From IMG/VR virus record IMGVR_UViG_3300008448_000512, positions 1 through 26,874 of that record: a stretch of 26,874 nt of DNA, one strand, 5' to 3'. Positions 1 through 15,526 of the stretch are shown here, piece by piece. This DNA comes from a virus. The notes under the pieces are model-generated. The model was given only the letters and a program-made list of their open reading frames with translations. It was not told where the DNA came from and ran no database searches. How positions within the stretch are numbered: the first letter of the stretch is position 1; each line of letters opens with the position of its first letter. The translations under genes and the position numbers were made by a program.

Positions 1-3000
1 GCCCATGCTCCAGACATCGGGACGGACGCTCTTGGCTGCTTCGAAGACCGCGCTGTAGAAGCCTAGCGCGTCTAGCTCTCGCTCGCCTTTGGGGTCGTGG
101 GTTTGGGATTGGGCTAGGCTGGTTACGCCTCGTCCTCGTCCGAGTTGTCTAGATCGTGCTGCTGCTGCGCGTCGAGTGGCCTGTAGATCCTGCTCAACTC
201 GCGCAAGAGTTCCGGCGATGCGCCGCTCGCTGACTCCGCTGTCTCTGACGAGGGAGGCTGCGGCATTGGCGTAGTCTGGGGCTTCGTCGTCTTCATAGGA
301 CTCCACTCCAAGGTCGTCCGACTTCGAGGCATCATACAACAGCTTCTCAGGATACCAAAGCAGAGCCTGGAGGTCAGCCATCGTCAGGCTGGGATATTCC
401 GCCTGAAGCTCTTCAAGAGCACGGGCAAACACCTTGCGGATGTTGCTCCGCTCTGGCGTCGTCGGCTGTTCCTTCTGCCCATCGATGTACTTGATTAGCG
501 CGTTGCCCAGCTTGCGCAGCTCATCACCGTATGAGATCCGCGTCTTGCCCGTTGCGGCGGCGCCCAAGATGCCATCCAGCGTAGACTGTCTGGCCTTGGT
601 TTTTGCCGCGCCAATCAGCGCCATCTCGTCTCGGTTCGACGCTTTCATCGACGCCTTGAGGATGGCCAGCGCCACACCGTCAGGATCGCCCACGTTCAGG
701 CGATGGCCGATGATATCTTCGAAAGCCTTCTTCTCTGCCGGCGAGAGTTCCTTGATGAGTGCCTTGATCTGATTGCGCTTGGCGCGGACCTGACCCGGAT
801 TGTCGGTGATCAGCGTACCCGTCCACCGGCCCCATGTCCTCATCAGCCAGCGGTCCATCGTCAACTGACCGAACTGGCCATAGAGGTTCATGAAGAACCC
901 GTTGCCGATCTTGGGGCCAAGCACGGCTGCGCCAAAGACCTCAGTCGTCAGGTTCTCTCCGCTGATCTTCTGGCCCGACAGAGCCACGGCAATCTTGACC
1001 GTCGTCCTGGTCGTCATGAACGACTGGAGCTTTTCGAAGCCATGCTTGGCAAGCATGGTGTTGTAGAGCTTCAGGCTCTTGTTGATGGCAATCTTGGCTG
1101 TGCCTTCACCGATGTCGGTCGGCATCTTGCCGGTCTTCTTGAAGGCCACATACGCGCGCTCCGCGAGGCGGAAGTTTTTGTCTACCTTCATCCCGTTCGA
1201 GGTGACGGCAAGCGCCCAGACGAATGCGAACTTCGCCTTGGGGTCCGTCTCAATCTCGGGATGCAGCAGGGCCAGCAGGCGAAGCGCCTTCGTCACCTTC
1301 TCATCGTACCAGCCGACCGCGTTGCCGTTGGTCTTCATGGCCTCCAGAGCGTCAGTCAGCACCATGCTGACAAGGTAGTCCTCGACCTCCGGGCTCATCT
1401 TCCCAGACGCTTCTGAGAGATCGAGTCGCCCTTCAGCCGCAGCGGCCACGCGCTCCTGTAGCACCACCTTGAAGTCACGGTTGGTGGGGAAGGTCCGGCT
1501 CGAGGCCAGCTTCGTGGCGCTCGTCAGGCTGGACACCTTGACGATCGGCGCAGCCGCGCGCGTGGGCTGGACGGACTGCGCCAGCGAACCGGCGCCCTCT
1601 TCCTCAAGATCGACCTGCGGCAGCGACCGCATCGCTTCATCCTCGGCGGCAGCTTCCTCCGCCTGCGCCTCGCGCGTGTCGCGATATTGCCCCGTCGAAA
1701 GCCAGAAATACGCCCGCTGTTCAGGCCGCTCGTCGATCTCGGACTGGACCTCGAGACGAACCTCGCGCTCCTCGTCGGTCCATGCGGACTTCTGCGTGCG
1801 CTGGTACTCGTCCATCAGGCGGGCCATGAGTGCAGCCTCGGCGCGTTCACGGGCTGCGGCGTAGCGCTCCCGCATACGCTCCAGAAACTTCTCCTTGCGC
1901 TCTGGCTTCCACAGGCCCTTGGGGTCTTGCGCCTTGAGGATAGCCTGCGCCATCGCCTCGCCGTCGCGCGCAATCCCGACATGCACCGCCTTGATGGCTT
2001 CGTCGGTCGCGAGCATCCGATCGAACACCTGCCGGATTTCGTCGCTGAGATTGGCGCGTCCACCGATGCGTGAGACGAGCCCCTTGTAGATGCTCAGCAG
2101 CCATTGCTTGAAGCTGGCAAACACAGAGCGCAGCGCCGTCGTCGGAGCCTTGCCGTCCATTAGGTAGGCTTCGAAGCTCTCGGCAAACGCTTCCTGAAGA
2201 TCAACGCCTTCCTTCGTGAACGAGCCGTCCGCGTTGAACATGGCGTCCCAATTCGGGGACTTGCCGTGCCATTCGAGGACGGCTGCAAGTTGCTCCAGCA
2301 CGAACGGGTGCGGGTTCTCGGTCTTTGACATCCGCCAGAGGGTGTCGAGATACCAGTGCGATCCTTCGTGAGCGAGGGTTGAGAGGTTGGCGCTTTCGAA
2401 CAGGCGAACAACGTTGCGGTCGGCGCGGGGGGTGAAGTCGCCGCGTGTCTCTTGAGCTAGAAGCCTAGCTTGCGATCCCGCTAAGACCACAATTTGCTGA
2501 TCCGCAGGCGTGTCTTCCGTCGTCCACGGCGGCTTGGCGCGGCGCTCGTCAGCCGTAAAGTTCCTTCGGCTCTGAACGTTTCGAGCCTCAACCTCGCCAG
2601 CGTGGCGGCGATAGTTGGGGTCTTTGCTGTTCGCGCCCATCGCGAAGAGTTCTTCCTCTTGGATGGCGTGCTGAGTCTCGTGGAGGAGGACACTGCGTAG
2701 ATCGTCGGACTTGGCCGAAATACCGCCCTTGCCGTATTTGCCTCGATCAGTGAACAGCGAGAACTTGGCTGTCGTTGGCGTTTCAGCAACCCCCGGATAC
2801 GCTCCCCCCACATCAGCATTTGTGAGGAAGTCCGCCAAGGTGCCGGTGATGGGTCGCCCTTTCTTAAGGACGACATCGCTGTCATCGACTTCAAAGCGCC
2901 ACAGGCTATCGACGCCCTTGAACGCCCCGATAAAATTCGTGCCGCGAAGCATATCAGTGGTAGCGGCCCAGATCTCCTCTCGGGTTGCCCCCTCAGTGTC

Positions 3001-5754
3001 CATCCGCATTGCAAGACCTAGCGCATCGACAACACGGGGCTCGCCCTCAATCTTCAGCCAGTTTGCACCGTGAACGCCGCCAAACTGCGCCAGCGACTTC
3101 GCGCCTTCCAGCGCCGCGCGCCGCTCCTCGATCTTCGCCTTGTTCTTGCTGGCGAGCGCCTTGACGCGGTTCACTGCCGTCTCGGTATCCACGTCGGGAT
3201 ACAGCGCTGCCGCGATCTGGGGGTTCTTCACGCCCCTTGCGCGCAGCTCGATCAGGCGCTGCGTGACCGGCGACATGCCCCGGTCGTTGAAGCTGGTCTT
3301 CTGCGAATCGTACCCACGCTCGCGTGAGCCCCACAGCCAGCGCTTCACATCGTCGGCAGAGACAACCGCATCGGGCTCGACCGCGTTCATACGCTCCGCA
3401 ATCGCCTCATTGCTGAGACCGTCACGCGCGCCCTTCCACGCTTCGAACTCCTGCGGCGAAAGCTCCTTGGAGGCGAACTCAAGCTCCACATCGCCGGGCG
3501 GGTTGGCCGTGCGCGCCATGCTCTGCGGCAGTGAGTCGGCGTCCGATTGCTCGCCGCTCAGCGCCGCGACGATGTCGAAGCCCTGCTCTTTCCACAGCGT
3601 CTCGGGGTCTACGCCCGTCCGCAGGGCCAGCGTCTCGACCATCGAGCCGACAAGCTCTGCCTGCGTGTTGGCCGAGTCGGCGTTGAACCGGCCCGTTGCT
3701 GAAACCTGCTCGCGGATCGTGTTGCGGACCCGGTCGCCGCTGTCGGCAAATGCCTGATCCGTCGTGCGCCGTTCCTCGCGGGCCGTGGCCTCCGCCTCGA
3801 ATGCAGCCTTCGCCGCTTCGCTCTCACGCGCCGTGAAATCATCAGCACGCAGGCGCATGTCCGCAGCAAGCGCCTGATGGATCGTCTCGCCCGAGACGCC
3901 GATCTCCTTCATCGACGTAGACAGGCCGGCAGCGTAGTTCCCAGCCGGGATGACGACATCCTCGCCGGTATCGATCGCCGTGACCATCTCGTTCGGGTCG
4001 ATGCGGAACGCCTGCGCAATCTGCTCGACGCTGACGCCCTTCTCCTGCGCCAGCGATGTGATGGCCTCGGGCGCGATCCGGACGCTTTCCAGCGGGCCGT
4101 CCTTCGTGACCTGGTTGACCAGTTCCCGGTATTTCTCGGGCAGGCGCTTCAGCAGCTTCGAATCCTTGGCATTCTGCGCCATCGCGTCGAACGTCTTGGA
4201 AAGCTGCTCGGTGCGCTTCTGCCTCGCGTTCTTGTCGATCTGGTCGCCCGCAGCCTGCATCCCCTGCGCAACCGTGGTCGTGACGCCTGACATGATCGTG
4301 GACGCCACCAGCGTCTCGAGAGCAGCGTTCGGACGTTCAGCCAGGAACTCGCCCAGCGTCTTGTCGGGGTTCATCTCAATGAACGTCGAGGCGTCCTGAA
4401 GGAAGGTCGCCGCCTGTTCGGTAATGCCCTCTGCCGCAGCCTGCCGGAAGAACGTCTTGGCGAACGAGCTATCCTTTGCCAGATCATCCACGAGGAACTT
4501 CAGCGGGATAAACTCGGTCGCCGTCTCGATGCCGCCTTGCGTCAGGGCGTAGCGGAAGGCATCGCCCAGCGACTTGCCCTCGTCCCGCGCCTCACCATAG
4601 GCGCCGCCCGCCGTCGTCGCTCCCATCGTGCCAGCGCCCAGCACGGGGCTCTTCGTGATGGCCGTGATGGCAGCCGATATGATCGTGGACGGGGCCGAGG
4701 CAGCCGCCCCATAGATGCCGCGCTCAAGCCACGTCTCGCCAACCGGCATCTTGGCCGCAACCAGGTCGCGGTACGCGCTTGCCTGCATTTGCGCAGTGAG
4801 GCTGCGCTGAACCTGCTCATTGGCGAGATCGAACTTGCCCGGCACCCAGTCAGGCAGCGCCTTGTAGATCGAGGCGTTCGCATCGCCCAGCATCTGGTCG
4901 AGGCCCCAGAGCGTCTCTTGCAGCTTCTCTCCGAAGCCGACCGCGAACGATTGCCCCATCTTCTCAGGCGTGAACCCTCCGGGGCTGAAGAATGCCTGCG
5001 TCTGCTCCCACCAGCCAAGGTTCTCGACATCGTCGTGGGCGACCTCGAGGTTGGCAGGGTTGTAGTCCAGCCATGCCCGCAGTTTCGGAGCGGTCTTCCG
5101 CAGACTGTCGATCGCCTGCGCCCGGTCAACGGCAACGAACGTATCGCGGTTGCGCTCGACCTCGAGCCTGTTGACGCCCTGCCGTTCGGCAAGTTCTGCA
5201 TCGGTTGCGGCCTGATCTGGGTTCGGCGCATTGAGCATCCGGGCGCGGAGGTCGCGGGTAGATTCGCCTTCCTTCCTGGCCCTGAACCGATCGCGGATAT
5301 TGGCGATCTGATCTTCTGACAGACCACCATCGCCAACCGGCTGCTCCGGGCCTCCAGAGCCCATGCCGACAAAGCTCTCCCCTTCCGGGGCCGCTGGCAT
5401 CGCGAGTTCGGGCGACCAGTTGTCAGGGCCGCCAAATCCCTGCTCGTCGCGCATCGGATCGTCAATGTCCGGAGCGCCCATGCGATTGAACACACCGCCC
5501 GGCAGCGCATCCCCGTTTGGCTGCGGATCACCATTCGTCCTGACCCGCCAACCGCCCGTGACGGGTTCGGGAACATCGATCGGTGATGTCCCGCCATTCG
5601 GATCGAACGGCTTGACCTTCTGCTCCATCAGCTCCTTGAGCTTCGCGTCGGACTTCTCGCGATAGCGGCGCGCTTCCTCGCGGTCACGCTGCTCCTGCGT
5701 TTCGCGGTCGATCTCGGTGACGCGCGCAGCGGATGAGAATGGGATAACTGGCAT
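1..5754 (-). CDS. Giant polyvalent internal virion protein with two zincin-like motifs (gp16 position), incomplete
   Basis: An uninterrupted reading frame of 1,918 codons starts at ATG 5754 and runs off the left edge without a stop, so the C-terminus is missing. The start overlaps the stop of the upstream gene (TGATG). Visible parts in order: a charged, probably disordered N-terminus; Gly/Ala-rich hydrophobic stretches near residues 346-385 and 480-500; a GEDVVIPAGNYAA segment near 595, typical of phage polyvalent proteins; helix-turn-helix-like stretches around 755-890; a domain at about 900-1095 with HETQH at 1025-1029 and GEVEAR at 1053-1058, resembling polyvalent-protein domain LPD23; a second zincin-like domain with HEGSH at 1129-1133 and possible third ligands E1188 or E1192; a charged coiled coil near 1290-1340; a conserved phage domain ending in MDRWLMRTWGRWTG at 1633-1646; and a GFYSAVFEAAK motif from 1898. 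Position after gp14- and gp15-like genes suggests an ejected protein like T7 gp16. No lytic transglycosylase motif was seen. Peptidase activity is inferred. Confidence 0.88.
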   Translation of the reverse strand, partial: MPVIPFSSAARVTEIDRETQEQRDREEARRYREKSDAKLKELMEQKVKPFDPNGGTSPIDVPEPVTGGWRVRTNGDPQPNGDALPGGVFNRMGAPDIDDPMRDEQGFGGPDNWSPELAMPAAPEGESFVGMGSGGPEQPVGDGGLSEDQIANIRDRFRARKEGESTRDLRARMLNAPNPDQAATDAELAERQGVNRLEVERNRDTFVAVDRAQAIDSLRKTAPKLRAWLDYNPANLEVAHDDVENLGWWEQTQAFFSPGGFTPEKMGQSFAVGFGEKLQETLWGLDQMLGDANASIYKALPDWVPGKFDLANEQVQRSLTAQMQASAYRDLVAAKMPVGETWLERGIYGAAASAPSTIISAAITAITKSPVLGAGTMGATTAGGAYGEARDEGKSLGDAFRYALTQGGIETATEFIPLKFLVDDLAKDSSFAKTFFRQAAAEGITEQAATFLQDASTFIEMNPDKTLGEFLAERPNAALETLVASTIMSGVTTTVAQGMQAAGDQIDKNARQKRTEQLSKTFDAMAQNAKDSKLLKRLPEKYRELVNQVTKDGPLESVRIAPEAITSLAQEKGVSVEQIAQAFRIDPNEMVTAIDTGEDVVIPAGNYAAGLSTSMKEIGVSGETIHQALAADMRLRADDFTARESEAAKAAFEAEATAREERRTTDQAFADSGDRVRNTIREQVSATGRFNADSANTQAELVGSMVETLALRTGVDPETLWKEQGFDIVAALSGEQSDADSLPQSMARTANPPGDVELEFASKELSPQEFEAWKGARDGLSNEAIAERMNAVEPDAVVSADDVKRWLWGSRERGYDSQKTSFNDRGMSPVTQRLIELRARGVKNPQIAAALYPDVDTETAVNRVKALASKNKAKIEERRAALEGAKSLAQFGGVHGANWLKIEGEPRVVDALGLAMRMDTEGATREEIWAATTDMLRGTNFIGAFKGVDSLWRFEVDDSDVVLKKGRPITGTLADFLTNADVGGAYPGVAETPTTAKFSLFTDRGKYGKGGISAKSDDLRSVLLHETQHAIQEEELFAMGANSKDPNYRRHAGEVEARNVQSRRNFTADERRAKPPWTTEDTPADQQIVVLAGSQARLLAQETRGDFTPRADRNVVRLFESANLSTLAHEGSHWYLDTLWRMSKTENPHPFVLEQLAAVLEWHGKSPNWDAMFNADGSFTKEGVDLQEAFAESFEAYLMDGKAPTTALRSVFASFKQWLLSIYKGLVSRIGGRANLSDEIRQVFDRMLATDEAIKAVHVGIARDGEAMAQAILKAQDPKGLWKPERKEKFLERMRERYAAARERAEAALMARLMDEYQRTQKSAWTDEEREVRLEVQSEIDERPEQRAYFWLSTGQYRDTREAQAEEAAAEDEAMRSLPQVDLEEEGAGSLAQSVQPTRAAAPIVKVSSLTSATKLASSRTFPTNRDFKVVLQERVAAAAEGRLDLSEASGKMSPEVEDYLVSMVLTDALEAMKTNGNAVGWYDEKVTKALRLLALLHPEIETDPKAKFAFVWALAVTSNGMKVDKNFRLAERAYVAFKKTGKMPTDIGEGTAKIAINKSLKLYNTMLAKHGFEKLQSFMTTRTTVKIAVALSGQKISGENLTTEVFGAAVLGPKIGNGFFMNLYGQFGQLTMDRWLMRTWGRWTGTLITDNPGQVRAKRNQIKALIKELSPAEKKAFEDIIGHRLNVGDPDGVALAILKASMKASNRDEMALIGAAKTKARQSTLDGILGAAATGKTRISYGDELRKLGNALIKYIDGQKEQPTTPERSNIRKVFARALEELQAEYPSLTMADLQALLWYPEKLLYDASKSDDLGVESYEDDEAPDYANAAASLVRDSGVSERRIAGTLARVEQDLQATRRAAAARSRQLGRGRGVTSLAQSQTHDPKGERELDALGFYSAVFEAAKSVRPDVWSMG

Positions 5755-7418
5755 CAGTCAGCCACCACGCGCGCATACTCCGCATCCAGTTCCGCCTTGG
5801 TAGGCTCCCGGCGCTTCGTGCGGATAAACTCGGATATGATCTCGTTGCGAATGTTCGCACCCTCGTCATAGGCAAAGCGAGACCCGCCATCGGTCGCCAT
5901 GATGCCCGCCTCAGTCTTGAACGAGGCAGCGCCAGGGTTTTCCAGATAGATGTCACGCTGGTTCGTCGGCAGGTTCATGAAGTTGTCCGGCTGGTAGCTA
6001 CGCAGCGCCCGCGCAACCGCATCGCGTGCCTCGTCCACGGTCAGCGGCGTTCCGCCCTTGTCCTTCGACAAGCTTTCCGCGACGGATTGCAAGACGCCAC
6101 GGAACGGCAGCGAGTTCTCGTTCAGGTTCTTCGGGTTCGCGTCCGAGGAAAGCTGCCATTCCGGCACGACACGCTTTGCCTCGTCGAGAAGCGCGCCATA
6201 AACGGAGTTGACGGAGGGCGTCGTCGTTCCGCTGATCTTCATTTCAGATAGTTTGCGCTCAACAGCCCGCTGATCGTCGTCGTTCAGCATCGTGTAGTAA
6301 TTGCGGTATTCTTCACCCCATCCATCCGGCCCAGCCAGAAAGCGCGCCGTCGTTGCGGGGGTGTTCGCCATTGCATCAAAGATAAACTTCACATTCTTGC
6401 TGCGTTCGTCGAAAGCTTTGCGCTCTGCGGCTGACAGCTTGGCCCGCTCCGCTGCGGCCTTCAGGCGATCATCCTCAGCACGCAGCGCGCGGATAAGCAC
6501 AGGCACATCGTTCGGGTTGATTGTCCCAAGCGCCGCCGCCTCATCGATCTGGCTGCGCGTCACCTTGCCATCAAGGATGTCCACTTCCATGGCGTTGCCC
6601 ATGGCGCGCTGGCTATCGGCCTTTTCCTTCTCTTGCAGGTTCCGTTCGCGCCCCACGCTGCTAAGCGCATCCTCACGCTCAGCAACGGAGAGCCCCTTGG
6701 CGCCGGCAATCATCTTCTCTGCGCCGTCAAAGTCTCCGGTGCGGGCGATGGCCAGAACGCCTGCGGACCAGCGCATTTTGACGTCCTTGACTGCATAGCT
6801 CTCCAGCAACGCGACCCGCTTTGCGGCTTCCTCGTCTCCGATAAACCCGCCCGCTAAATGCTGGGCAGTAAGCGCACGAAGGCCGTCGAGCTTGCTTGCG
6901 TATGTCTCTGGCGAGATGGATGGATCGCCCGCCATCGCCTCGGCTTCAGATGCCATCGTGATATAGGCGCCGCCGACCTTGTCCACCTGGCGCTTGCGCA
7001 GGAGGTTCTGGCTCCAGACATCGCCCTCGCCCTGAACGCCGCGAGCGCGGATTTCCCACAGTTCGCGAGCGCGTGAGGATGAGATACCCCCGCCGACCTC
7101 CTTGATGATCAGTTCGGATTCCTGCTTCCAGCGCTGCGGGAGCGCTGCGTCAGGCGTCTCAGGATCAAGTTCGATGTTCTGCCGCGCCTTGTCCATGCGG
7201 ACGCGCATGTCAGCGTCAGCCTTCACAAGCTCGTGGTCTTCTTTTTCTTTCTGAAGCTTGTTGCCGAACTCCAGCATCGCCTTGCCGACACCGTCCAGCG
7301 CCTCAGCCGCAGCACGCTGCCCGCTGAAATCGGGGATCGGGATATCCACAACGCCGCGCGTGTTCTGCGCCGCACTGGGGTCTAGACCGAGCTGAGCCGC
7401 CCTTGGAATGCGAGCCAC
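5754..7418 (-). CDS. gp15-like internal virion (DNA ejection) protein
   Basis: A 554-residue protein that appears almost entirely helical, with few aromatic residues and long charged stretches. Residues about 30-80 look like coiled coil. It starts at GTG 7418 with GAGG upstream, and its TGA overlaps the ATG of the giant gene, so the two are probably translationally coupled. No catalytic motif is visible. By position it matches T7 gp15, an internal core protein that is ejected into the host with DNA and helps span the envelope. The function rests on gene order and the helical composition rather than on a recognised domain. The gap upstream holds a plus-strand lipoprotein gene that separates it from the gp14-like gene. 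Confidence 0.75.
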   Translation of the reverse strand: MARIPRAAQLGLDPSAAQNTRGVVDIPIPDFSGQRAAAEALDGVGKAMLEFGNKLQKEKEDHELVKADADMRVRMDKARQNIELDPETPDAALPQRWKQESELIIKEVGGGISSSRARELWEIRARGVQGEGDVWSQNLLRKRQVDKVGGAYITMASEAEAMAGDPSISPETYASKLDGLRALTAQHLAGGFIGDEEAAKRVALLESYAVKDVKMRWSAGVLAIARTGDFDGAEKMIAGAKGLSVAEREDALSSVGRERNLQEKEKADSQRAMGNAMEVDILDGKVTRSQIDEAAALGTINPNDVPVLIRALRAEDDRLKAAAERAKLSAAERKAFDERSKNVKFIFDAMANTPATTARFLAGPDGWGEEYRNYYTMLNDDDQRAVERKLSEMKISGTTTPSVNSVYGALLDEAKRVVPEWQLSSDANPKNLNENSLPFRGVLQSVAESLSKDKGGTPLTVDEARDAVARALRSYQPDNFMNLPTNQRDIYLENPGAASFKTEAGIMATDGGSRFAYDEGANIRNEIISEFIRTKRREPTKAELDAEYARVVAD

Positions 7419-7441
7419 TGTTATGCGCCTCGCTTAGGCTG

Positions 7442-7471
7442 TTGTGAGGGTTCGATACGTGCCATTCTAAA
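7442..7471 (+). promoter_or_regulatory. Candidate sigma70-type promoter for the lipoprotein gene
   Basis: TTGTGA (7442-7447) and TCTAAA (7466-7471) each match four of six consensus bases with an 18-base spacer. They lie in the short gap between the divergent gp15-like and lipoprotein genes. A gene lying opposite to the late block would need its own promoter, which makes this plausible but unproven. Confidence 0.3.
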
Positions 7472-7497
7472 TCACAACTTCGCGCTGGGAGGAATTG

Positions 7498-7794
7498 ATG
7501 CGAAAACTCGCTTTCGTCGGATTGTTCATGCTTGGCTCGTGCTCACTCGGACCATACGGTCTGGAGGGCCTCGATAATTCGGTGCAGAGCTTCGTCACGC
7601 CTGACGGAAAATCCGCCTCGCTGATCCACTGCGGCGGGCCTGATCTGACCATCGCCACATGCCAGGAAAGAGCACGAGCACTCTGCGGTGGGGACTACTC
7701 AGAAATAAACCGCTCGATCACGGCGAGAGCCAAACCGGGCGGATGGACGCCGGCCAGCGAGAACCGATCGATCGAAGTGGTCTGCAAAACTTAG
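7498..7794 (+). CDS. Small secreted lipoprotein, probable moron
   Basis: A 98-residue protein starting at ATG 7498, preceded by GGGAGGA at 7487-7493; a TTG three bases earlier is too close to that ribosome site. The N-terminus MRKLAFVGLFML followed by GSC is a signal peptide with a lipobox, giving a lipidated Cys15 and Ser at +2, which suits an outer-membrane lipoprotein. The mature part has four cysteines (45, 55, 63, 96) that could form two disulphides. It lies opposite to its neighbours inside the internal virion protein cluster, and its TAG overlaps the TAA of the converging gp14-like gene. Lipoproteins in this setting often alter the host surface or block superinfection, but that role is inference. 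No family is recognised. Confidence 0.75.
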   Translation: MRKLAFVGLFMLGSCSLGPYGLEGLDNSVQSFVTPDGKSASLIHCGGPDLTIATCQERARALCGGDYSEINRSITARAKPGGWTPASENRSIEVVCKT

Positions 7795-8327
7795 CCAGTG
7801 AACCCTTTGGAGACTTCGGACATTCCGCCCGATGCAAATGCTGCCGCGATATCTTTACCCAGCTTTTCCGTGGACAATATCGTCTGCCCCCACGTTGCAG
7901 TTTTCTGAGCGCTCGCTTTCAGTCGTCCCTGTTGCAGACCCGTCGCGCCCGCGTACCGCCTCGTGCTCGCTTCAAACCGGAGCTGACGCTCCTTGTCCTC
8001 CGCGTTGGCCATCTGCATCAGCTTCTCGACGCTGGCGCTCTTGATCGTCTCGTCCGTGATGGCCTGAACCGTGGCGTCCGTTGTGTCACCGCCGCCGGCA
8101 GCAGCCGCCGCACGCTGGGACGACAGGATCTGCTTCGCACGCTGGTTGATGATGTCCGCGTTATAGGTGCCGACCGCAACTTCACGCGCGGCCTGCGTCT
8201 CAAGCTGCTTCGCCTCGCCCATGCCCGAGACCAGCGCCGCCTGGCCCGCATTGGTCGCCGCCTTCGCCGCAGCCATACCCGCCTTGTGCGATGCCCCGAT
8301 ACCTAAAGCCTGGAGAGTAAAGCTCAC
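7791..8327 (-). CDS. gp14-like internal virion protein
   Basis: A 178-residue Ala/Gln-rich helical protein. The chosen start is GTG 8327 because AAGGA lies eight bases upstream; an in-frame ATG at 8351 has no comparable site. The early GIGASHKAGMAAAKAA stretch and the following Ala-rich helices (NADIINQRAKQIL, then SSQRAAAAAGG) are typical of T7 gp14-type internal virion protein B, which forms a pore in the outer membrane during DNA ejection. It lies just after the gp13-like gene, which it overlaps by 128 bases in another frame, and before the gp15-like gene, as in T7. Assignment comes from composition plus synteny. Confidence 0.78.
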   Translation of the reverse strand: MSFTLQALGIGASHKAGMAAAKAATNAGQAALVSGMGEAKQLETQAAREVAVGTYNADIINQRAKQILSSQRAAAAAGGGDTTDATVQAITDETIKSASVEKLMQMANAEDKERQLRFEASTRRYAGATGLQQGRLKASAQKTATWGQTILSTEKLGKDIAAAFASGGMSEVSKGFTG

Positions 8328-8673
8328 GCCGCCATTCCTTCTTTTCGTCATCCACCGGCTGGAACCCCAGCCTCAACAGCCAGGCTTCAGCCCTCGGGAT
8401 GTCATAGTTGCAATCAGCGTGGATGGCAGGGACACCCGCATCATCCATGCGCCTGAACATATCCAGCGTCGTCGCATGAACGCTGCGAGGACAGCCGGGG
8501 CGCATCGCGAAATTGCCCCACCACTTCTCGTTCTCGTCAACCCAGATCAGCGCAAGCGCGACCAGTTCACCATCCCGCCGCAGCACGAACCCGAAGAACC
8601 GGCTGGGATGCGGATACTCCTCAACCCCCCACTCAATGAAGTGGGACACATCGAGGTTCTCACGCCAGATCAC
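8200..8673 (-). CDS. GNAT-fold acetyltransferase-like protein (gp13 position)
   Basis: A 157-residue protein. The preferred start is GTG 8673, overlapping the TGA of the upstream nozzle gene in a GTGA junction. The sequence FGFVLRRDGELVALALIW, then W-W-G-N-F, RSVHATTLDMFRRM and IPRAEAWLLRLGFQPV, follows the strand-helix pattern of GNAT acetyltransferases ending in the usual LGF motif. T7 gp13-type proteins, which are needed for assembling the internal virion proteins, occupy this slot and resemble acetyltransferases. The classical acetyl-CoA loop Q/R-x-x-G-x-A is not evident, so enzyme activity is doubtful. The last 40 or so residues are Gly-rich and are read from DNA that also encodes gp14 in another frame, so they may be a non-functional tail. 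Confidence 0.78.
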   Translation of the reverse strand: MIWRENLDVSHFIEWGVEEYPHPSRFFGFVLRRDGELVALALIWVDENEKWWGNFAMRPGCPRSVHATTLDMFRRMDDAGVPAIHADCNYDIPRAEAWLLRLGFQPVDDEKKEWRRELYSPGFRYRGIAQGGYGCGEGGDQCGPGGAGLGHGRGEAA

Positions 8674-10970
8674 GCAGACTTCTCGTTCGTCTCCAGGTGA
8701 GGGACCAGCCCCAGAACAGTTGCAGGCCCCGCAGTCGGCATCGACAGGCACACCCTCGGGTCTTTGCTCGTCGCACCCGCGAACGGCTTGTTGATGTCGT
8801 CCGTAATCTCGACCATCGCCGCATCGAACGTCACCGGGTCATCGCCCTTGATCGTTTCCATGTTCGTGAAATCACGGCCCCACTTCAGGGCGCCCGGCGC
8901 TGTCCGGTAAGGCAGGAGCCCGATGCGGGTGACCTTCCGGTCCTGCGTCATCGCCGTACCCATCGATGCCCCGCCCATCACACGGGGCGACTTGTACTTG
9001 CCCTCATAGAGCAGGCCCGTGATTGCATAGGCCGCTGCATAGTCCAGCGTGATGGCCCCGCTCGTGACCGTGTAAGGCCCCTGCTGGTAGCCATCGGTCC
9101 ACGAATAGACCGTCCTGCCCTCGAGATGGGTGAGCCCGGTGATGGCCGTCGTCGCAGCCCCGGAATACACAACCGCACCGCGCAGACGCCAGACATCCTC
9201 CATGTCCTCCCATGCCTCGGGTGCGAGCTTCTCGACATGCCTTACCGTCGATCCGTTCACTGTCCGACGCACGATGAAATAGACGCTGTCCTCAACGTCA
9301 CCAGGAAGGCAGCAGACGCTTTCGTAGTAGGCCCCGGTATCCACCAGCCTGCACCACGCAACCACGCCCTCGATCGGCTCATACAGCAGCACAGCCATCC
9401 GGCCATCGTCGCACGGGAGCCATATTCTCGGCTCTGGATTGTACTGTACCGCACACTCAATGAAGCCGTCCGCTGATCCCTCGTCGCCGGCGACCGTCCG
9501 GTGCAACCGGGTCAGCTCGTTGAGTTCATACTTGTTGCCGTCCAAGACCATGCGGAACAGCTTGCGGGTCGAACGGTCAATGAACGCCGCATCGGCATCC
9601 ACCGCAATTGCCTGCGCATCAGCCGAACCGCGCCTTGACCTTGGCCGCGAGGCTGCATTGGTCGGCGTCAGGATGTCGTCCTGCGTGTTGGACGAGACCT
9701 CAGCCTCGCGTGCGTCCATGCAGATGACCATCTTGTCCACGCCCAGCATCGAGCGAACCGAACCCCAGCCGCCCGTGACCCGGCGCGTGAATGCATTGGC
9801 GTCATCCGCCCCGATCTCGAAGCTTTCGAAGTCATCCGAGTCGGACGCCCAGAAGCGATCGTCCCTGCCCGCCCACAGCCTGCCATCTGACAGCGCAATG
9901 GCCGCAGGCCAGCCCGAAGCATCCGACCAGGCCGAGAACGCCCAGTCCGTCGTCGCCGTCGTCTTGCCAACCGGCGTCAGCACATCGACCGTCGCTGAGT
10001 TGTCAGTTTCGACGCTGTGGATGCGGACAATACCGTCCGTCGATCCGTTGGCGTGCTGAAGCACAACCGTTGCCGTGCCGCTCGTCCATGCCGTCGCCAG
10101 CACCCGGTAGTAGATGATCTGGTTGTCGAGCGCGTCGTTGTAGGTCGTGTCGGTCGTTCCCGTGTGCGTCTGGTACGTCACCCAGTTGAGTTCGGAGCCA
10201 ACGCTTCGCTGAAGCACCAGCGTTCCGACGAACACGCCCGTGATGGTAAGCTGGAGGTTACGGTTGGTGGTAGCGCCCGTGACCTTGGCGCTTGTCGAAT
10301 ACTCGGCCAGGGCGTCGATCGATGCCGTGATGTACTGGCCCTGATGGGTGATCTTCATCAGCGCGCCAGCATGGGTGGCCCTGAAGATCGGCGCTGATGC
10401 AGTCAGCGTTCCAGCGCCGGTATTGGTGCTGCACGTCATCGTCGAGGTCGTGATGTTGAGGTTGGAGAACGGCCCATTCTCAGGCTGGTACTTGCGAAGG
10501 CTCCACGATTTATCCCCGCGCCGCTCAAGCACCCGCGTCTGCACGCCCTTGGTCGTGATCCATGCAACGTCGAAGCTCTGCTCCATCCGCAGGCTGCGAA
10601 GCGTGTCCTCCTGCCACGGCGTCTCCAGCGTCAGGTCGCCAGCCCCGAGGGTCGTGAACCCGAGCAGGTTCGACTTGCCCTGTGCCGCCCCGACATAGCC
10701 GATGTCTGGCAGGCGGAACTCGACGTAATAGGGCGAGACGCCAGGCGTGAACGTGATGAGATGCTGGCCGGGGTAAAGCGTCAGGTCAGTGAATATCTCC
10801 TGCCCGCCCGCGCTCGTCCCTGCCCGCATCTTCAGCGGACGCCTGGTGATTTCGAACGAGAACGTAACCTCTGATGTGGGCGCTGACGATGTCACAGCCG
10901 AGCGTGCAATCGCCTCGCTGCCTGCCGTGGTCGTGAAGGCAACGTCGGCCCCTGATACCGATATGCCCAT
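8670..10970 (-). CDS. Tail nozzle protein, large part (gp12 / tail tubular B-like)
   Basis: A 766-residue beta-rich protein with the features of podoviral tail nozzle proteins: an N-terminal region around YPGQHLITFTPG and YYVEFRLPDIGYVGAA, a long stretch of Ser/Thr-rich beta structure, the hallmark LSDGRLWAGRDDRFWAS near residue 358 followed by FESFEIGADDANAF, and a C-terminal beta domain. Family members form a hexamer at the tail tip through which DNA leaves. The ATG overlaps the stop of the preceding 177-residue gene (TAATG), and that gene carries the sequence normally found at the N-terminus of this protein family. The protein therefore appears to be made as two coupled chains. It comes directly before the gp13-like gene, as in T7. 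Confidence 0.85.
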   Translation of the reverse strand: MGISVSGADVAFTTTAGSEAIARSAVTSSAPTSEVTFSFEITRRPLKMRAGTSAGGQEIFTDLTLYPGQHLITFTPGVSPYYVEFRLPDIGYVGAAQGKSNLLGFTTLGAGDLTLETPWQEDTLRSLRMEQSFDVAWITTKGVQTRVLERRGDKSWSLRKYQPENGPFSNLNITTSTMTCSTNTGAGTLTASAPIFRATHAGALMKITHQGQYITASIDALAEYSTSAKVTGATTNRNLQLTITGVFVGTLVLQRSVGSELNWVTYQTHTGTTDTTYNDALDNQIIYYRVLATAWTSGTATVVLQHANGSTDGIVRIHSVETDNSATVDVLTPVGKTTATTDWAFSAWSDASGWPAAIALSDGRLWAGRDDRFWASDSDDFESFEIGADDANAFTRRVTGGWGSVRSMLGVDKMVICMDAREAEVSSNTQDDILTPTNAASRPRSRRGSADAQAIAVDADAAFIDRSTRKLFRMVLDGNKYELNELTRLHRTVAGDEGSADGFIECAVQYNPEPRIWLPCDDGRMAVLLYEPIEGVVAWCRLVDTGAYYESVCCLPGDVEDSVYFIVRRTVNGSTVRHVEKLAPEAWEDMEDVWRLRGAVVYSGAATTAITGLTHLEGRTVYSWTDGYQQGPYTVTSGAITLDYAAAYAITGLLYEGKYKSPRVMGGASMGTAMTQDRKVTRIGLLPYRTAPGALKWGRDFTNMETIKGDDPVTFDAAMVEITDDINKPFAGATSKDPRVCLSMPTAGPATVLGLVPHLETNEKSA

Positions 10971-11503
10971 TACGAACCATACCCAAAGTAGCCGAACCCG
11001 GTGAAATTGATGTCCACGTAGAACGGGTCAGCCACATCGCTGGTGCCACCCGTGATCGGGGCCGCGCCGCCTGACGACGGAGCCGCAGATTGATCCGAGA
11101 ACGCGCCGATCGTGGCTTGCGCGCCAGTGATGGTCACATACGCCGCCGTCGCATTGTCAACGAACCGCATCTGGTTTGCCGATAGCTCGAGCGCATAGGA
11201 AATCTCCCGCGAACGAACGAACGGACGCAGGATGCCTAGGCTCTCGCCCTCCGTGACAATCTCCGTCGTGCCATCTTCCTCGAGGATGACCGTGCCGCCC
11301 TCGTCCGTGATCTGCGCCAGCGCCGTCACATCGTCGAGGAACTTGGAGCCGGGAACCTTCGACATGCCCCCGTTCGTGTACGGGAAACAGTTCTCCATCG
11401 TCTCAGCGAGGCGGGAGTAGATGTCGAGATCAGCCCGCGCCAGCGTCTGCTTGTCAGCCTCGCCACCGTTGAGCGCAAGCACTGTTAAATTTTGCTTACC
11501 CAT
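10970..11503 (-). CDS. Tail nozzle protein, N-terminal part as a separate gene
   Basis: A 177-residue protein. Its first 55 residues (LNGGEADKQTLARADLDIY, then NCFPYTNGGMSKVPGSKFL) match the usual opening of podoviral nozzle and stabilisation proteins, where a Gly-rich pattern of the type GG-x-S-x-x-x-x-x-R-x-D precedes a PG-x-x-F turn. Residues 120-165 are low-complexity Gly/Ser/Ala, and the chain ends in an aromatic Gly-rich tail. It contains an internal GGTVILEEDGTTEIVTEG element also found in two other virion genes here. The start overlaps the gp11-like stop by eight bases, and the stop overlaps the start of the 766-residue nozzle gene. It may assemble with that chain. Confidence 0.72.
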   Translation of the reverse strand: MGKQNLTVLALNGGEADKQTLARADLDIYSRLAETMENCFPYTNGGMSKVPGSKFLDDVTALAQITDEGGTVILEEDGTTEIVTEGESLGILRPFVRSREISYALELSANQMRFVDNATAAYVTITGAQATIGAFSDQSAAPSSGGAAPITGGTSDVADPFYVDINFTGFGYFGYGS

Positions 11504-12098
11504 TGTAGCGCCGCGAGAAACCGTAGCGCGCTTTCTCGTACTCGCCCGGAGGGATTACGAATGGCGGATTCTGCTGGGCGTCCCACAGCTTCGCCTGAGT
11601 GAGGTTGCGCAGCATCGTCTTGCGCAGTTCTTCCTTCTTGGTGTCGCTCGAGCCAATGACCGGGCAGACCTTCCACGCCAGTTGAGCTGCAAGAGCACCG
11701 GCAAATACTTCCGGCCACATGCCTGGACTGTCGATCTTCTCGCCATCGACATAGTCCAGCCATGTAGTCTCGGAATCCGTCAGGATGCGACCGCCGAAAT
11801 CCAGATAATCGATCTGGCCGGCGGTCGGTGTGGAGACAGACGCTACCTTGAGGATGCGCTTGCACTTCGCAGGCTTGGTGAAGCCATAGTCCCAACCGTC
11901 TGGGGTCGGGCTCACTGCGGCGAGTTGAGACTTGACGAGCGAGAAGTTCCAATTGTGAACCTCGAACAGCTTTTTGACCTCACGGTCGTAAGCCTGCGTC
12001 AGTCTAACGACCCATGTGCTGTCATCGTCCGACCCGCTTGAGGGCGGTTCGCCCAGATGCTCAAGCGCGTCGTTGATAACGTCTGTCGCGGTCGTCAT
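11496..12098 (-). CDS. Tail tubular protein A (gp11-like head-to-tail adaptor)
   Basis: A 200-residue protein with the signature of T7 gp11-like proteins: ALEHLGEPP at residues 11-19, then a helix ending LTQAYDREVKKLFEVHNWNF (the Y-x-x-x-R and W-N-F pattern), then a beta region around WDYGFTKPAKCKRIL, and C-terminal helices AGALAAQLAWKV and MLRNLTQAKLWDAQQNPP. In T7 this protein forms a dodecameric ring between the portal and the nozzle. Its ATG overlaps the stop of the upstream gene (TGATG) and GAGG lies eight bases upstream. The nozzle genes follow at once, as in T7. This is one of the firmer assignments in the window. Confidence 0.88.
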   Translation of the reverse strand: MTTATDVINDALEHLGEPPSSGSDDDSTWVVRLTQAYDREVKKLFEVHNWNFSLVKSQLAAVSPTPDGWDYGFTKPAKCKRILKVASVSTPTAGQIDYLDFGGRILTDSETTWLDYVDGEKIDSPGMWPEVFAGALAAQLAWKVCPVIGSSDTKKEELRKTMLRNLTQAKLWDAQQNPPFVIPPGEYEKARYGFSRRYNG

Positions 12099-12625
12099 CA
12101 GACAGCCTCAGCATCCAGTCGAGTGTCTGTGGCGGTGCGCGGCTGGCGACCTCGTCGCTTGGGAGCCTCACCATCGTCAGGCTCACCACCCAGTTCGATG
12201 ATCTTCGCACGCGCCTGCTCCGATGAGTTGAACATCGCAGCCTTCTCGACGCCCTTGAAGAAGATCGTCCACTTGCGCTCGATGCCCATGTACTGCATCG
12301 ACCAGCCCGCCGGCAGCGTGCCGTGCTCGAACACCACCGGCCCATGAATGGCCGAGGTGATGACCTTGTCCACAGAGCCAAGGCAGGCGCGGACCATCAG
12401 GCGCACATACCAGGACCAGTCAGCCGGGCGGACATCGATGAAGTCGCCCTCACGCAGAAGCTTGTCGGTCGGACCACGCGCCTGCATCCGTCCGAAGTAT
12501 TCCGGCGCCATTACGTCATCAAGCGAATGCCCGACAGGCAATGTCGCCACGTAGGTGCCAAATTGTTTGCCGTCGTGCTCGATCTCCAGAACGTTCTTCG
12601 TCGGGCAGCGCATCGGGTCGGCCAT
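12098..12625 (-). CDS. Conserved phage virion-associated protein, function unknown
   Basis: A 175-residue protein starting at ATG 12625 with GGAGAC at the right distance upstream. The middle (EYFGRMQARGPTDKLLREGD, DWSWYVRLMVRACL, WTIFFKGVEKAAMF) looks like a compact alpha/beta fold, followed by an acidic then strongly basic tail (PKRRGRQPRTATD). I do not recognise a named family. It is the first gene after a strong terminator and precedes the head-to-tail adaptor gene, so it probably acts in head completion or is a minor virion component. That role is inferred only from position. Confidence 0.7.
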   Translation of the reverse strand: MADPMRCPTKNVLEIEHDGKQFGTYVATLPVGHSLDDVMAPEYFGRMQARGPTDKLLREGDFIDVRPADWSWYVRLMVRACLGSVDKVITSAIHGPVVFEHGTLPAGWSMQYMGIERKWTIFFKGVEKAAMFNSSEQARAKIIELGGEPDDGEAPKRRGRQPRTATDTRLDAEAV

Positions 12626-12636
12626 GTTGTCTCCAG

Positions 12637-12668
12637 AAAATTAAGGGCGGAGGCCGAAGCCCCCGCCC
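12637..12668 (-). terminator. Rho-independent terminator after the capsid/decoration genes
   Basis: On the minus strand a 10-base-pair stem (GGGCGGGGGC with GCCTCCGCCC, one G-U pair) closes a TTCG tetraloop and is followed by TTAATTTT. It lies between the 110-residue decoration-like gene and the next gene. T7 has its main late terminator in the equivalent place just after the capsid gene, so this one probably sets capsid output above tail protein output. Confidence 0.82.
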
Positions 12669-12682
12669 AGTTGGTCGTCTTA

Positions 12683-13015
12683 CTACGAATTGGTGATCGT
12701 AATCGCCAAGCCGTTGGTCAGGTCAGCCGCGCCGGCAGTCGAGATGCCGAGCACGATGTGGATGTACATCGCCGTCAGGATGTTGGCGGTGCCAGCAGCC
12801 GTTTGCATTTCCGACGTTTCGGTCGGAACAGCGGTGGTCCAGATGCGGACGTACACAAGGTCGCCCTTCTGCATTCCGCGTTCGAGAGCATCAGAGATGT
12901 ACCCGATTGCGTACACCGTCGAGTTGGTATCGACCGTGTCGTAGGTCCACGTTGACATGCCGAGGGGACCGCCAGAGTTCGAGACCATCCCCAAACTTGC
13001 AGGAGTATAAGCCAT
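12683..13015 (-). CDS. Probable capsid decoration or stabilising protein
   Basis: A 110-residue protein with a strong ribosome site (GGAAGGAAA) before ATG 13015. It starts MAYTPASLGMVSNSGGP and continues with a beta-rich chain containing IGYISDALERGMQKGDLV and a hydrophobic C-terminal part ending in ITITNS. Proteins of this size and pattern often sit directly after the capsid gene in podoviruses and appear to bind the capsid surface. It is only 26 bases from the capsid gene stop and is followed by a strong terminator, so capsid and this protein are probably made together at high level. The decoration role is inferred from context. Confidence 0.68.
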   Translation of the reverse strand: MAYTPASLGMVSNSGGPLGMSTWTYDTVDTNSTVYAIGYISDALERGMQKGDLVYVRIWTTAVPTETSEMQTAAGTANILTAMYIHIVLGISTAGAADLTNGLAITITNS

Positions 13016-13041
13016 AGTTCAGTTTCCTTCCGTTCAGGGGA

Positions 13042-13896
13042 TTAAGCGATGGACGCGGTGTCGTCATGCACGGCGCGATAGACGCCACGCGTGAGGACCA
13101 GAGCGGCGCAATGGATCGTCTTCACCCATGTGCCGTACCGATCTTCTTCGTCCTCGTAGTACATGTGCGTCATCGGCTCGCCGTCGATCTGGTGGCCGAT
13201 CGCGTTCATGTCGTAGATGTAGCACTTGGCAGTGCTCGTACCCTTGCCGGTGAGGCCGGTGTGGCGCAGCCACTTGACGCCGAGCCACTCGCGATACTGA
13301 CCAACAGGCGGTGCGCCTTCGACCAGCGGCTTCACGTCGTTGAAGTCGATCGACACGAAGTCGTTGATCGTCTCCATCTGAAGCCACGCATTCGGGGTGA
13401 TGACGCCCCAGATGTTGCCGTTCCACTCAACGTCAGCGTTCATCAACTGGGAGACCCAGGTCAGGAACGTGGACTTGACGCCGAAATCGATGGCGGAGCC
13501 GGAGTTGATCGCGTTGGACGATCCATCGAGCGCATCGATGATCGCCTGGTCGATCGACTTGTTGATCGATGCACGGCCCTTGCGAGCGTGCGCGGCGCGG
13601 GTGTTCGGGTTGGCGCGGAACAGGTCGAACGAGTCGATCTGATACTTCTTGAAGTGTTCCTCCATCGTGCCGGTCGCCTGGCTGAGGCCAAGCTGGGACA
13701 CGGGGATGAGGCCGTCACGGGTGCGGACGTTAGCCGCGTCGGAAGGATCGACAACGTCCCACTTCACCGTCGATCCGTGCTGCGCGCCGTCGTTGCGGAC
13801 GGTCTGCTTGAGGAGCGAGGGCTCGCGTTCGTAGTCGAATTTGAACTCGTCGTTATACTGCGTCCGAAATTGGGACGTGATCTGGTTAACAGCCAT
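13042..13896 (-). CDS. Major capsid protein
   Basis: A 284-residue protein. ATG 13896 is chosen because AAAGGA lies eight bases upstream; the in-frame ATG three codons earlier overlaps that site. The sequence MAVNQITSQFRTQYNDEFK, a middle region DLFRANPNTRAAHARKGRA, the strand-rich NIWGVITPNAWLQMETINDF and the C-terminal MYYEDEEDRYGTWVKTIHCA followed by ALVLTRGVYRAV fit the HK97-fold capsid family of podoviruses annotated simply as 'phage capsid protein'. It follows the scaffold gene by about 180 bases and precedes a decoration-like gene, the normal order. The length is on the short side for a T7-like capsid protein (T7 gp10A is 344 residues). Confidence 0.85.
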   Translation of the reverse strand: MAVNQITSQFRTQYNDEFKFDYEREPSLLKQTVRNDGAQHGSTVKWDVVDPSDAANVRTRDGLIPVSQLGLSQATGTMEEHFKKYQIDSFDLFRANPNTRAAHARKGRASINKSIDQAIIDALDGSSNAINSGSAIDFGVKSTFLTWVSQLMNADVEWNGNIWGVITPNAWLQMETINDFVSIDFNDVKPLVEGAPPVGQYREWLGVKWLRHTGLTGKGTSTAKCYIYDMNAIGHQIDGEPMTHMYYEDEEDRYGTWVKTIHCAALVLTRGVYRAVHDDTASIA

Positions 13897-13953
13897 GTGC
13901 TGCATCCTTTGTGTGATGAATGACAGAAATGGCGATGCCGTCCGTCGCGTGGG

Positions 13954-14031
13954 TTACTCGTTGCCGAGGGCCGCGTGACAGTCTTCGAAAAGCTCGCAGG
14001 GCTGTTTCCAGGTTACTGCGCGCTGAGCCAT
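13954..14031 (-). CDS. Possible 25-residue ORF between scaffold and capsid
   Basis: ATG 14031 opens a 25-codon frame (MAQRAVTWKQ, then PCELFEDCHAALGNE) with CAGGG four bases upstream. It fills much of the gap of about 180 bases between scaffold and capsid. The peptide has a mixed, protein-like composition with two cysteines, but it is too short to judge. It could equally be an untranslated leader of the capsid message. Confidence 0.25.
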   Translation of the reverse strand: MAQRAVTWKQPCELFEDCHAALGNE

Positions 14032-14067
14032 CAACCCTGATCGCCGGGGGTGACAGTCAGCCTGTTA

Positions 14068-14091
14068 GTCCGCCTCTAGTTTGAGGCAGAC
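14068..14091 (-). other. Hairpin across the scaffold stop codon
   Basis: A nine-base-pair stem (minus strand GTCTGCCTC with GAGGCGGAC, one G-U pair) and a six-base loop encloses the TAG of the scaffold gene. No T-run follows, so it is unlikely to terminate transcription. It may protect or define an mRNA end just upstream of the capsid message. Confidence 0.45.
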
Positions 14092-15014
14092 CGATCTTCA
14101 TGGCGCTGTTTGGCGTCATAGAGTTCTGCGAGACGTTTCTGCGTCTCGGAGGAGTTGTACTTGGCTCGGTTGGTCGCACGCAGCGCCAGCAGGCCGTCCA
14201 GTTCGCTCTGGATCGACTTGCTTGCATCCGCGCCATTGCGCCCGGCCTCGAGGAAGATCGGATCCTCCATCGTCTCACGGCCAATGCGCGCCATTGCCTT
14301 GATGAATTGCACGTTGTCGCCCAGCAGGGAGCCGTCCGCGAACTGCATGTCCGCGATATCCGACCATTCCTTGCCGAAGTAATGCGCCGCCGCAGCCTTG
14401 GCGAAGCCGACATTCCGCGCCTTCTCAGGGCCAGGCCACAGCTTGCCCAGCATCTCGTTGGTCACTTCAGCCTGACGCGCAGCCGTTGCAATGGCATAAG
14501 CCACAGCCGTCTCGGCTTCCCGATAGTAAAGCTCGTGAGCCGCATTAATCACAGCCGGATCAGCGTAGACGCCGCCCTTGGAATGCAGGAACGCCGTGAT
14601 GTCAGTCAGGCGCTCCTTGTCCGTGTCATTGGGCTCATAGCCCTGCGGAGGCTTGGTCTTGATCTCGTACTTGTCCGGTGTCTCAGGGATGCCGCGCGCC
14701 TTGGCATAGGCTGCACGGTCCTCGTCGGTCGCATCATCGCCGGGAATGGACACACGCCGCGGGTCCGTCGCCTTCGATCGGACTTCCTTGTACGCCTTGG
14801 CGAACGAGCCTTCGTCCGTGAACCGATCCAGCTCCTTGCGGAACTTGGCATCTTCACCGGCCAGCTTGCCGCGCCAGTCATAGTCCGATGACGTGTCGCT
14901 CGCCTCAGCGGGTGCAGCTTCTGCCTTCGCCGGGACCGCCTTTGCTTCTGCCTTGGGTGCGGGTGCAGCCTTTGCCGGCGCTTCCACAACTGCTGCTTCT
15001 GCTTCTTCAGCCAT
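14076..15014 (-). CDS. Capsid assembly scaffolding protein
   Basis: A 312-residue acidic protein. Residues 1-45 are almost wholly Ala, Glu, Lys and Pro and should be disordered. The rest is mostly charged helix, including WRGKLAGEDAKFRKELDRF and the RGIPETPDKYEIK pattern (PDKYE), which is frequent in podoviral scaffolds. A helical C-terminus ends in a basic KRLAELYDAKQRHEDRSASN tail of the kind that binds capsid protein. The start overlaps the end of the upstream gene by eight bases and has GGAG seven bases before it. It lies directly upstream of the capsid gene, as in T7 gene 9. A hairpin overlaps its stop codon. Confidence 0.82.
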   Translation of the reverse strand: MAEEAEAAVVEAPAKAAPAPKAEAKAVPAKAEAAPAEASDTSSDYDWRGKLAGEDAKFRKELDRFTDEGSFAKAYKEVRSKATDPRRVSIPGDDATDEDRAAYAKARGIPETPDKYEIKTKPPQGYEPNDTDKERLTDITAFLHSKGGVYADPAVINAAHELYYREAETAVAYAIATAARQAEVTNEMLGKLWPGPEKARNVGFAKAAAAHYFGKEWSDIADMQFADGSLLGDNVQFIKAMARIGRETMEDPIFLEAGRNGADASKSIQSELDGLLALRATNRAKYNSSETQKRLAELYDAKQRHEDRSASN

Positions 15015-15327
15015 TCTCAGTCTCCATTGCCTTGCGGACGCCCGTGGTCACAAGCCTGACCTCGGCTATGCTGAGCAGGGTTGCCCCGACCCAGCGCTTG
15101 CCCGCGTTGAATGCCCATGCCTCGGACGACATCATCTGTTCGCCAGCGACGACGCCCGTCATGTTGAGCAGGTATTGAACGAACCACGCCTGTTGCGGTC
15201 CCGATGCCCTGGCAGACATCACAGCCTTGATGGCCGCAATGTCGTCCACGGTGAGCGGCGGGGCCTGGTCGGGGCGAAGGGCGATCCGCTCCGGTTCAGG
15301 GATGACAGAACGCCGGTCGTCAGCCAT
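15007..15327 (-). CDS. Small conserved phage protein before the scaffold gene
   Basis: A 106-residue protein. The start is placed at ATG 15327 (MADDRRSVIPEPERIALRP) because the 35 extra in-frame codons upstream only mirror the neighbouring gene in another frame. The core (PQQAWFVQYLLNMTGVVAGE, then MMSSEAWAFNAGKRWVGATL) is a helical pattern with aromatic and Gly-Lys-Arg positions resembling Bbp19-type small proteins encoded near the portal and scaffold in podoviruses. That resemblance was judged by eye. It overlaps the preceding gene by eight bases and the scaffold gene by eight bases, so it is part of one coupled message. The molecular role is unknown. Confidence 0.7.
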   Translation of the reverse strand: MADDRRSVIPEPERIALRPDQAPPLTVDDIAAIKAVMSARASGPQQAWFVQYLLNMTGVVAGEQMMSSEAWAFNAGKRWVGATLLSIAEVRLVTTGVRKAMETENG

Positions 15328-15526
15328 CCGTACCCGTCCGCGGCTCCTCGGCAGGAACCGCTTGCGGGCGCAGGATGGTGGCGATGTCCACGCGATCCGT
15401 AGCGAGGAGCGCGTCGATGACAGCGATGCCACCAGTCGCCTGATTGGCGCGACCGATAGCGTCTTCCTTCATATCGACCAGAACCTTGCGTCTGGCCTGA
15501 AGGGCTTTGCTCTCTTCTGGCGTCAT
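15320..15526 (-). CDS. Small helical phage protein, unknown function
   Basis: A 68-residue protein. ATG 15526 is chosen because it overlaps the stop of the upstream repeat-protein gene (TAATG); the longer frame to 15571 would only read into that gene. The N-terminal half (MTPEESKALQARRKVLVDMK) is a charged amphipathic helix, followed by a small Gly/Ala segment and a Pro-rich C-terminus. No family is recognised. Its place in a run of overlapping virion genes suggests a minor structural or assembly role. Confidence 0.55.
   Translation of the reverse strand: MTPEESKALQARRKVLVDMKEDAIGRANQATGGIAVIDALLATDRVDIATILRPQAVPAEEPRTGTDG

Follow-up and report, generated by a model that had tools for sequence, protein, structure and literature searches.

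The giant gene at one end of the window (the whole stretch of DNA analyzed, a linear IMG/VR record of 26.9 kb) encodes, judging from its sequence, a phage-type polyvalent protein of a short-tailed phage, in which two predicted zincin-like domains behave differently among relatives. The second (Z2) is a near-constant partner of the N-terminal core, and the first (Z1) is a swappable cassette. We regard as moderately probable a reading in which this polyvalent and probably packaged protein combines a fixed frame of core and Z2 with exchangeable modules (Z1 and a helical domain, X), with Z2 cutting the chain and Z1 being cargo. Among the domains of polyvalent proteins, zincins are the most frequent; the description of these proteins left undecided whether zincins process the chain that carries them or attack the host (PMC5512222). 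The features on which the analysis rests are collected in Table 1.

TABLE 1 Features of the giant gene and its upstream neighbors in the window
Feature	Residues	Position (nt)	Strand	Basis
Giant polyvalent gene, 1,918 codons, no stop within the window, 3' part missing		1..5754	-	
N-terminal core, common to Bbp10 (BPP-1), AF_016 (Pseudomonas phage AF) and Caulobacter phage Jess A	171-740	3535..5244	-	Profile search
LPD22	175-252	4999..5232	-	Pfam PF18834, E 2.8e-14
Hydrophobic Ala/Ile-rich stretch, possible membrane segment	349-375	4630..4710	-	Hydropathy only
LPQ, core end	742-744	3523..3531	-	
LAQ, before Z1	888-890	3085..3093	-	
Z1 module: LPD23 plus zincin-like metallopeptidase, exchangeable cassette	910-1089	2488..3027	-	Pfam, alignments, model
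HETQH, predicted Z1 active-site motif	1025-1029	2668..2682	-	
GEVEAR; E1054/E1056 candidate third zinc ligand	1053-1058	2581..2598	-	Invariant Glu, model
LAQ, before Z2; low-confidence linker in model	1099-1101	2452..2460	-	
Z2 module: second zincin-like metallopeptidase, near-constant core partner	1101-1255	1990..2454	-	Alignments, model
HEGSH, predicted Z2 active-site motif	1129-1133	2356..2370	-	
E1188 (candidate third ligand) to E1195 of Z2	1188-1195	2170..2193	-	Alignment
LPQ, after Z2 block	1378-1380	1615..1623	-	
LAQ, before X	1391-1393	1576..1584	-	
X domain, conserved all-helical module, exchangeable	1411-1861	172..1524	-	Alignments, model
LAQ, after X	1880-1882	109..117	-	
P0002, 554 aa		5754..7418	-	Internal-virion-protein (gp15-like) position; without family match
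Internal virion protein		7791..8351	-	phrog_418

A polyvalent protein gene among virion genes

All the recognized virion genes of the window are on the minus strand, and their order is that of a podovirus: terminase, portal, major head protein, tail tube A, the two ORFs of tail tube B, internal virion protein, P0002, and the giant. From tail tube A onward, through the tail tube B ORFs, the internal virion protein, and P0002 to the giant, the same order is found in L002, L003, L020, and L229, and the giant gene occupies the equivalent place in Bordetella phage BPP-1, Pseudomonas phage AF, and Caulobacter phage Jess A. Because this order is kept in relatives, the placement of the gene in the position of T7 gp16, originally proposed from the window, is real. 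The reading frame itself agrees with the original prediction in its coordinates, its length of 1,918 codons, and its open 3' end.

Several unrelated domains (LPD22, LPD23, Z1, Z2, and X) occur in this one large chain, and its gene sits among virion structural genes, both of which mark polyvalent proteins. The polyvalent-protein segments that had been anticipated were recovered as LPD22 (residues 175 to 252; E = 2.8e-14) and LPD23, which forms the start of Z1 (residues 910 to 963; Pfam E = 2.7e-6, with a bit score barely over the curated cutoff). The helix-turn-helix-like segments anticipated at about residues 760 to 880 have no supporting match in the window protein; the homologous segment of L003 gives a subthreshold match to MerR (E = 0.027). 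Gene context and the precedent of other polyvalent proteins suggest that the giant is probably packed in the particle and injected with the DNA. A literature search for virion proteomics of the giant-protein family returned none.

The gene preceding the giant, P0002, is 30% identical to its counterpart in L003, although the tail tube proteins of L003 are 93 to 95% identical to those of the window. With L002, which is more distant, the identity of P0002 is 47%. This reversal of identities indicates that the P0002 gene has probably been exchanged between lineages. Two assignments of P0002 were rejected: as a structural lysozyme like AF_015, since the sequences are dissimilar, and as a relative of Bbp11, to which similarity is absent. 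Tail tube B is represented by two adjacent ORFs (8670-11503), one covering positions 1 to 60 of phrog_376 and the other positions 104 to 711; an assembly error splitting the gene was rejected because the split is also present in L002, L003, L020, and L229. A short acidic repeat, ILxEDGxTxL, recurs in three different proteins of the virion region (10970-11503, 16269-16664, and 17851-18273).

Two zincin-like domains

The giant contains exactly two HExxH motifs, compared with 0.0098 expected from its composition: HETQH at residues 1025 to 1029 and HEGSH at residues 1129 to 1133, both where they had been predicted. In the alignment of Z1 with 32 relatives, H1025, E1026, Q1028, H1029, E1054, and E1056 are among the invariant positions, the last two lying in GEVEAR, which begins at residue 1053 as originally noted. 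An HExxH-type motif is retained in 152 of 153 nonredundant Z1 stretches. All 32 aligned members match LPD23 in Pfam, 14 match the putative metallopeptidase family PF20573 (best E, 1.5e-8), and 4 match Peptidase_M78; the top PDB profile match, to IrrE, is weak (0.31 to 0.73). Searches with the Z1 profile recovered 243 bacterial and more than 500 viral loci, and a genome-contig scan with the Z1-Z2 block alone as the query gave no matches. In an Aeromonadaceae metagenome-assembled genome (L107, ORF 3-16169), a prophage-like giant has five Z1-type stretches, four of them with HExxH.

Z2 has no Pfam family match of its own, and its top PDB profile match, to Spartan/SprT, is weak (E = 0.02). Among 36 aligned relatives, H1129, E1130, H1133, E1188, and P1204 are invariant. 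Of the two glutamates originally singled out in Z2, E1188 is thus upheld and E1192 is not conserved; E1195 is conserved in at least 90% of the relatives.

An AlphaFold model of residues 886 to 1262, built from 55 sequences (mean pLDDT, 84.2), shows the zincin layout of strands, an HExxH-bearing helix, and a conserved Glu on a later helix in both domains, in agreement with the prediction that each motif lies in a zincin fold. Z1 is modeled as three strands followed by a helix with HETQH and a next helix with GEVEAR. In Z2, a short beta hairpin precedes the HEGSH-bearing helix, and E1188 to E1195 are on a later helix. The two strands of the Z2 model compare with three in the published core fold of polyvalent zincins (PMC5512222). 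With the joint two-domain model as the query, Foldseek found no match in the PDB at E < 0.1; against viral models, the significant matches were mostly to phage proteins that are unnamed or named as polyvalent, with E values down to 4e-11. As modeled and aligned, both HExxH motifs therefore sit in zincin-like domains with intact predicted catalytic residues.

The two domains had been described as different zincin-type folds. They do represent two families, both zincin-like, but their profiles align with a probability of 73%, superposing strand and HExxH, which argues that they are divergent members of the same kind rather than unrelated folds. Since conservation of the catalytic Glu equals that of the His residues, we infer that both domains would be active peptidases.

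Constant and exchangeable modules

When all fetched proteins were searched with profiles for the core, Z1, Z2, and X, 44 nonredundant core-bearing giants emerged, 39 of them with a core match that goes beyond a fragment. Z2 is present in 38 of these 39 full-core giants, and Z1 and X occur in 14 and 21, respectively, of the 44. Most core-bearing loci had been found through X or Z1 patterns and not through Z2; a few (L054 and L059 to L061) came from a Z2 query.

The closest relatives found, L002 and L003 (core identity, 73 to 80%), lack Z1, and its place is either empty or taken by a coiled-coil-like stretch. In these close relatives the first motif has thus been lost, as part of an exchanged cassette, whereas the second is kept. 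Loss in the two closest relatives indicates that Z1 is dispensable for this type of phage; it is also absent from L054. Its position and neighbors vary as well: Z1 follows Z2 in L020 and L055, the ART-PolyVal domain adjoins Z1 in L157 and is placed elsewhere in L055, and in Bbp10 of BPP-1 the slot between core and Z2 is filled by PBECR1, an RNase-like domain. Z1 followed directly by Z2 is a recurrent tandem: phage AF has it, as do about ten further loci in phages or prophages. The idea that this combination is unique to the window phage was accordingly rejected, and its recurrence in phages and prophages indicates that it is not accidental either.

X comprises about 450 residues, is modeled with a pLDDT of 91, and has many invariant residues, including those of GPKIGNGFF, TSNG, and DRW. 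Neither Foldseek nor a PDB profile search gave a fold or profile match, and similarity to DUF7178 is weak and confined to two relatives. X precedes Z2 in most X-bearing relatives and follows it in the window protein and L019.

L-x-Q peptides at module boundaries

Within the clade of the window protein, modules start behind a short L-x-Q peptide. When each tetrapeptide is counted once per nonhomologous context, SLAQ ranks above all others (7 versus 0.38 expected; P = 1.6e-7). At breakpoints derived from alignments between clade members, L[APFY]Q lies within 12 residues in 16 of 39 cases, against a rotation-based expectation of 2.2; control tripeptides with a comparable composition are not enriched. 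After redundant breakpoints were removed, L.Q ranked first of 1,200 patterns (19 of 33 versus 4.9 expected; P = 1.8e-8). These P values are optimistic, since related proteins contribute breakpoints that partly depend on one another. A relative fetched afterwards, L229, has SLAQ near the core end (residue 728) and ALAQ before the next module (residue 918).

Outside the clade, the tag precedes Z2 in 28 of 33 cases, versus 9.4 expected, and is at chance level before Z1 (31 of 150 versus 31.1 expected) and X (6 of 33 versus 9.0 expected). In a coarse boundary test that covered 41 giants, L-x-Q did not stand out. The 41-giant test, together with the chance levels before Z1 and X, led us to reject the idea that L-x-Q marks all module junctions of all giants. 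Low model confidence at the tag at residue 888 says little, since this tag lies in the N-terminal tail of the model.

Proposed roles of the two domains

In the reading we favor, the giant would be made alongside the late virion proteins and then packaged and delivered with the DNA. The LPD22-containing N-terminal core and Z2 would form the fixed frame. The exchangeable modules would be Z1, made up of LPD23 and a zincin and lying between core and Z2, and, behind Z2, the helical X. As a zinc peptidase, Z2 may cut the giant chain in flexible linkers, plausibly at the L-x-Q tags, and cutting during maturation or after entry would release the modules. Z1 would be one cargo among several, with a host protein or its own neighbors as its target. 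In this proposed division of labor, the constant Z2 would process the chain and the exchangeable Z1 would be cargo.

Both zincins might instead be injected effectors that cut host proteins, the chain being delivered whole and never processed. Host-attacking zincins have been proposed (PMC5512222), the N4 virion RNA polymerase is packaged unprocessed (PMC5512222), and relatives carry toxin-like domains in the Z1 slot, such as PBECR1 in Bbp10 and the ART-PolyVal domain beside Z1 in L157 (and elsewhere in L055). The presence of Z2 in nearly every full-core giant is, however, unlike the turnover expected of an arms-race effector, and we consider this account improbable. The same constancy would fit a structural role: the HExxH domains might serve as structural or metal-binding folds that packaging or ejection requires, without protease activity. 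In the N4 virion RNA polymerase, encapsidation depends on the region with the HExxH domain, and the protein is not cleaved (PMC5512222). The catalytic glutamates E1026 and E1130 are, however, invariant in all aligned members, although a zinc site with a purely structural task could do without them, and this account seems to us more doubtful still.

The tags are candidate processing sites. A self-processing polyprotein, in which Z2 cuts after L-x-Q to release the exchangeable modules, Z1 included, into the cell, and in which the tag is a portable cleavage site for slotting in modules, appears unlikely. There is close to an even chance that the tags are recombination leftovers or common linker composition rather than cleavage sites, with modules swapping at short shared linkers. 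Consistent with such leftovers, the tags coincide with exchange breakpoints, several lie directly behind FDP-type ends of the preceding modules, and those at residues 888 and 1391 of the window protein share one DNA word, TCGCTGGCGCAG, with an LAQ at residue 568. Other tags have differing codons (AGC CTA GCC CAA, CTT CTA GCT CAA, and TCG TTA GCT CAA), which argues for conservation of the peptide and not of the DNA, and the lack of enrichment among control tripeptides likewise speaks against this alternative.

In this family, a constant and a swappable zincin occur in one chain, with defined candidate cut sites (L-x-Q at residues 742, 888, 1099, 1378, 1391, and 1880) and homologous giants in cultured phages (Pseudomonas phage AF and Bordetella phage BPP-1), and the process-or-attack question of PMC5512222 thereby becomes directly testable.

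Comparison with known systems

The T7 gp16 gene and the giant gene occupy the same position, following the genes for tail tube and internal virion proteins. Homology to gp16 was rejected: no PDB match was found at an E value of 1 or less, and no transglycosylase domain appeared in the Pfam scan. Of the original description, an ejected channel protein carrying host-attacking or processing peptidases, the two zincin-like domains are upheld; the channel part is conjecture, since the giant has neither similarity to solved T7 proteins nor a lytic transglycosylase domain.

The N4 virion RNA polymerase resembles the giant in its large size, its ejection, and its zincin-like domain with HExxH (PMC5512222, PMC12633501). 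The latter, a 2025 structure report, places the HExxH motif in the C1 domain, and the passages found in it mention no activity test. The N4 protein combines an RNA polymerase with one zincin, whereas the window giant has two zincin-like domains and no T7-like RNA polymerase domain in Pfam and PHROGs scans of its available part (the 3' end is missing). The zincin-bearing DdrB of P1 is processed before packaging (PMC5512222); the N4 polymerase, packaged unprocessed, shows that a zincin can be present in a virion without processing the chain it belongs to.

Closer counterparts are found in three phages. AF_016 of Pseudomonas phage AF has the same core, the same order of Z1 then Z2, and the same gene position, but no X domain was found in it, and it is preceded by an annotated structural lysozyme (AF_015), to which P0002 of the window is dissimilar. 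Bbp10 of BPP-1 and gp039c of Caulobacter phage Jess A share the core, Z2, and gene position and, unlike the window giant, lack Z1, with PBECR1 in its slot in Bbp10.

That zincins occur in virion-delivered giant proteins, with roles in processing or host attack, was proposed in 2017 (Iyer et al., PMC5512222), and about 8% of zincin-bearing polyvalent proteins have more than one zincin (PMC5512222). The original interpretation is partly right and was mostly anticipated there, and the protein belongs to this known kind, being a giant multidomain protein encoded beside virion genes, with LPD22, LPD23, zincins, and, in relatives, toxin-like domains. A term search of the main text of PMC5512222 did not find L-x-Q junction peptides. 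Unlike the polyvalent proteins as described there, the giant has one zincin fixed to the core and another that is exchangeable; what these sequence comparisons add is this split, with Z2 constant alongside the core and Z1 as a cassette, and the L-x-Q peptides at module breakpoints in its clade.
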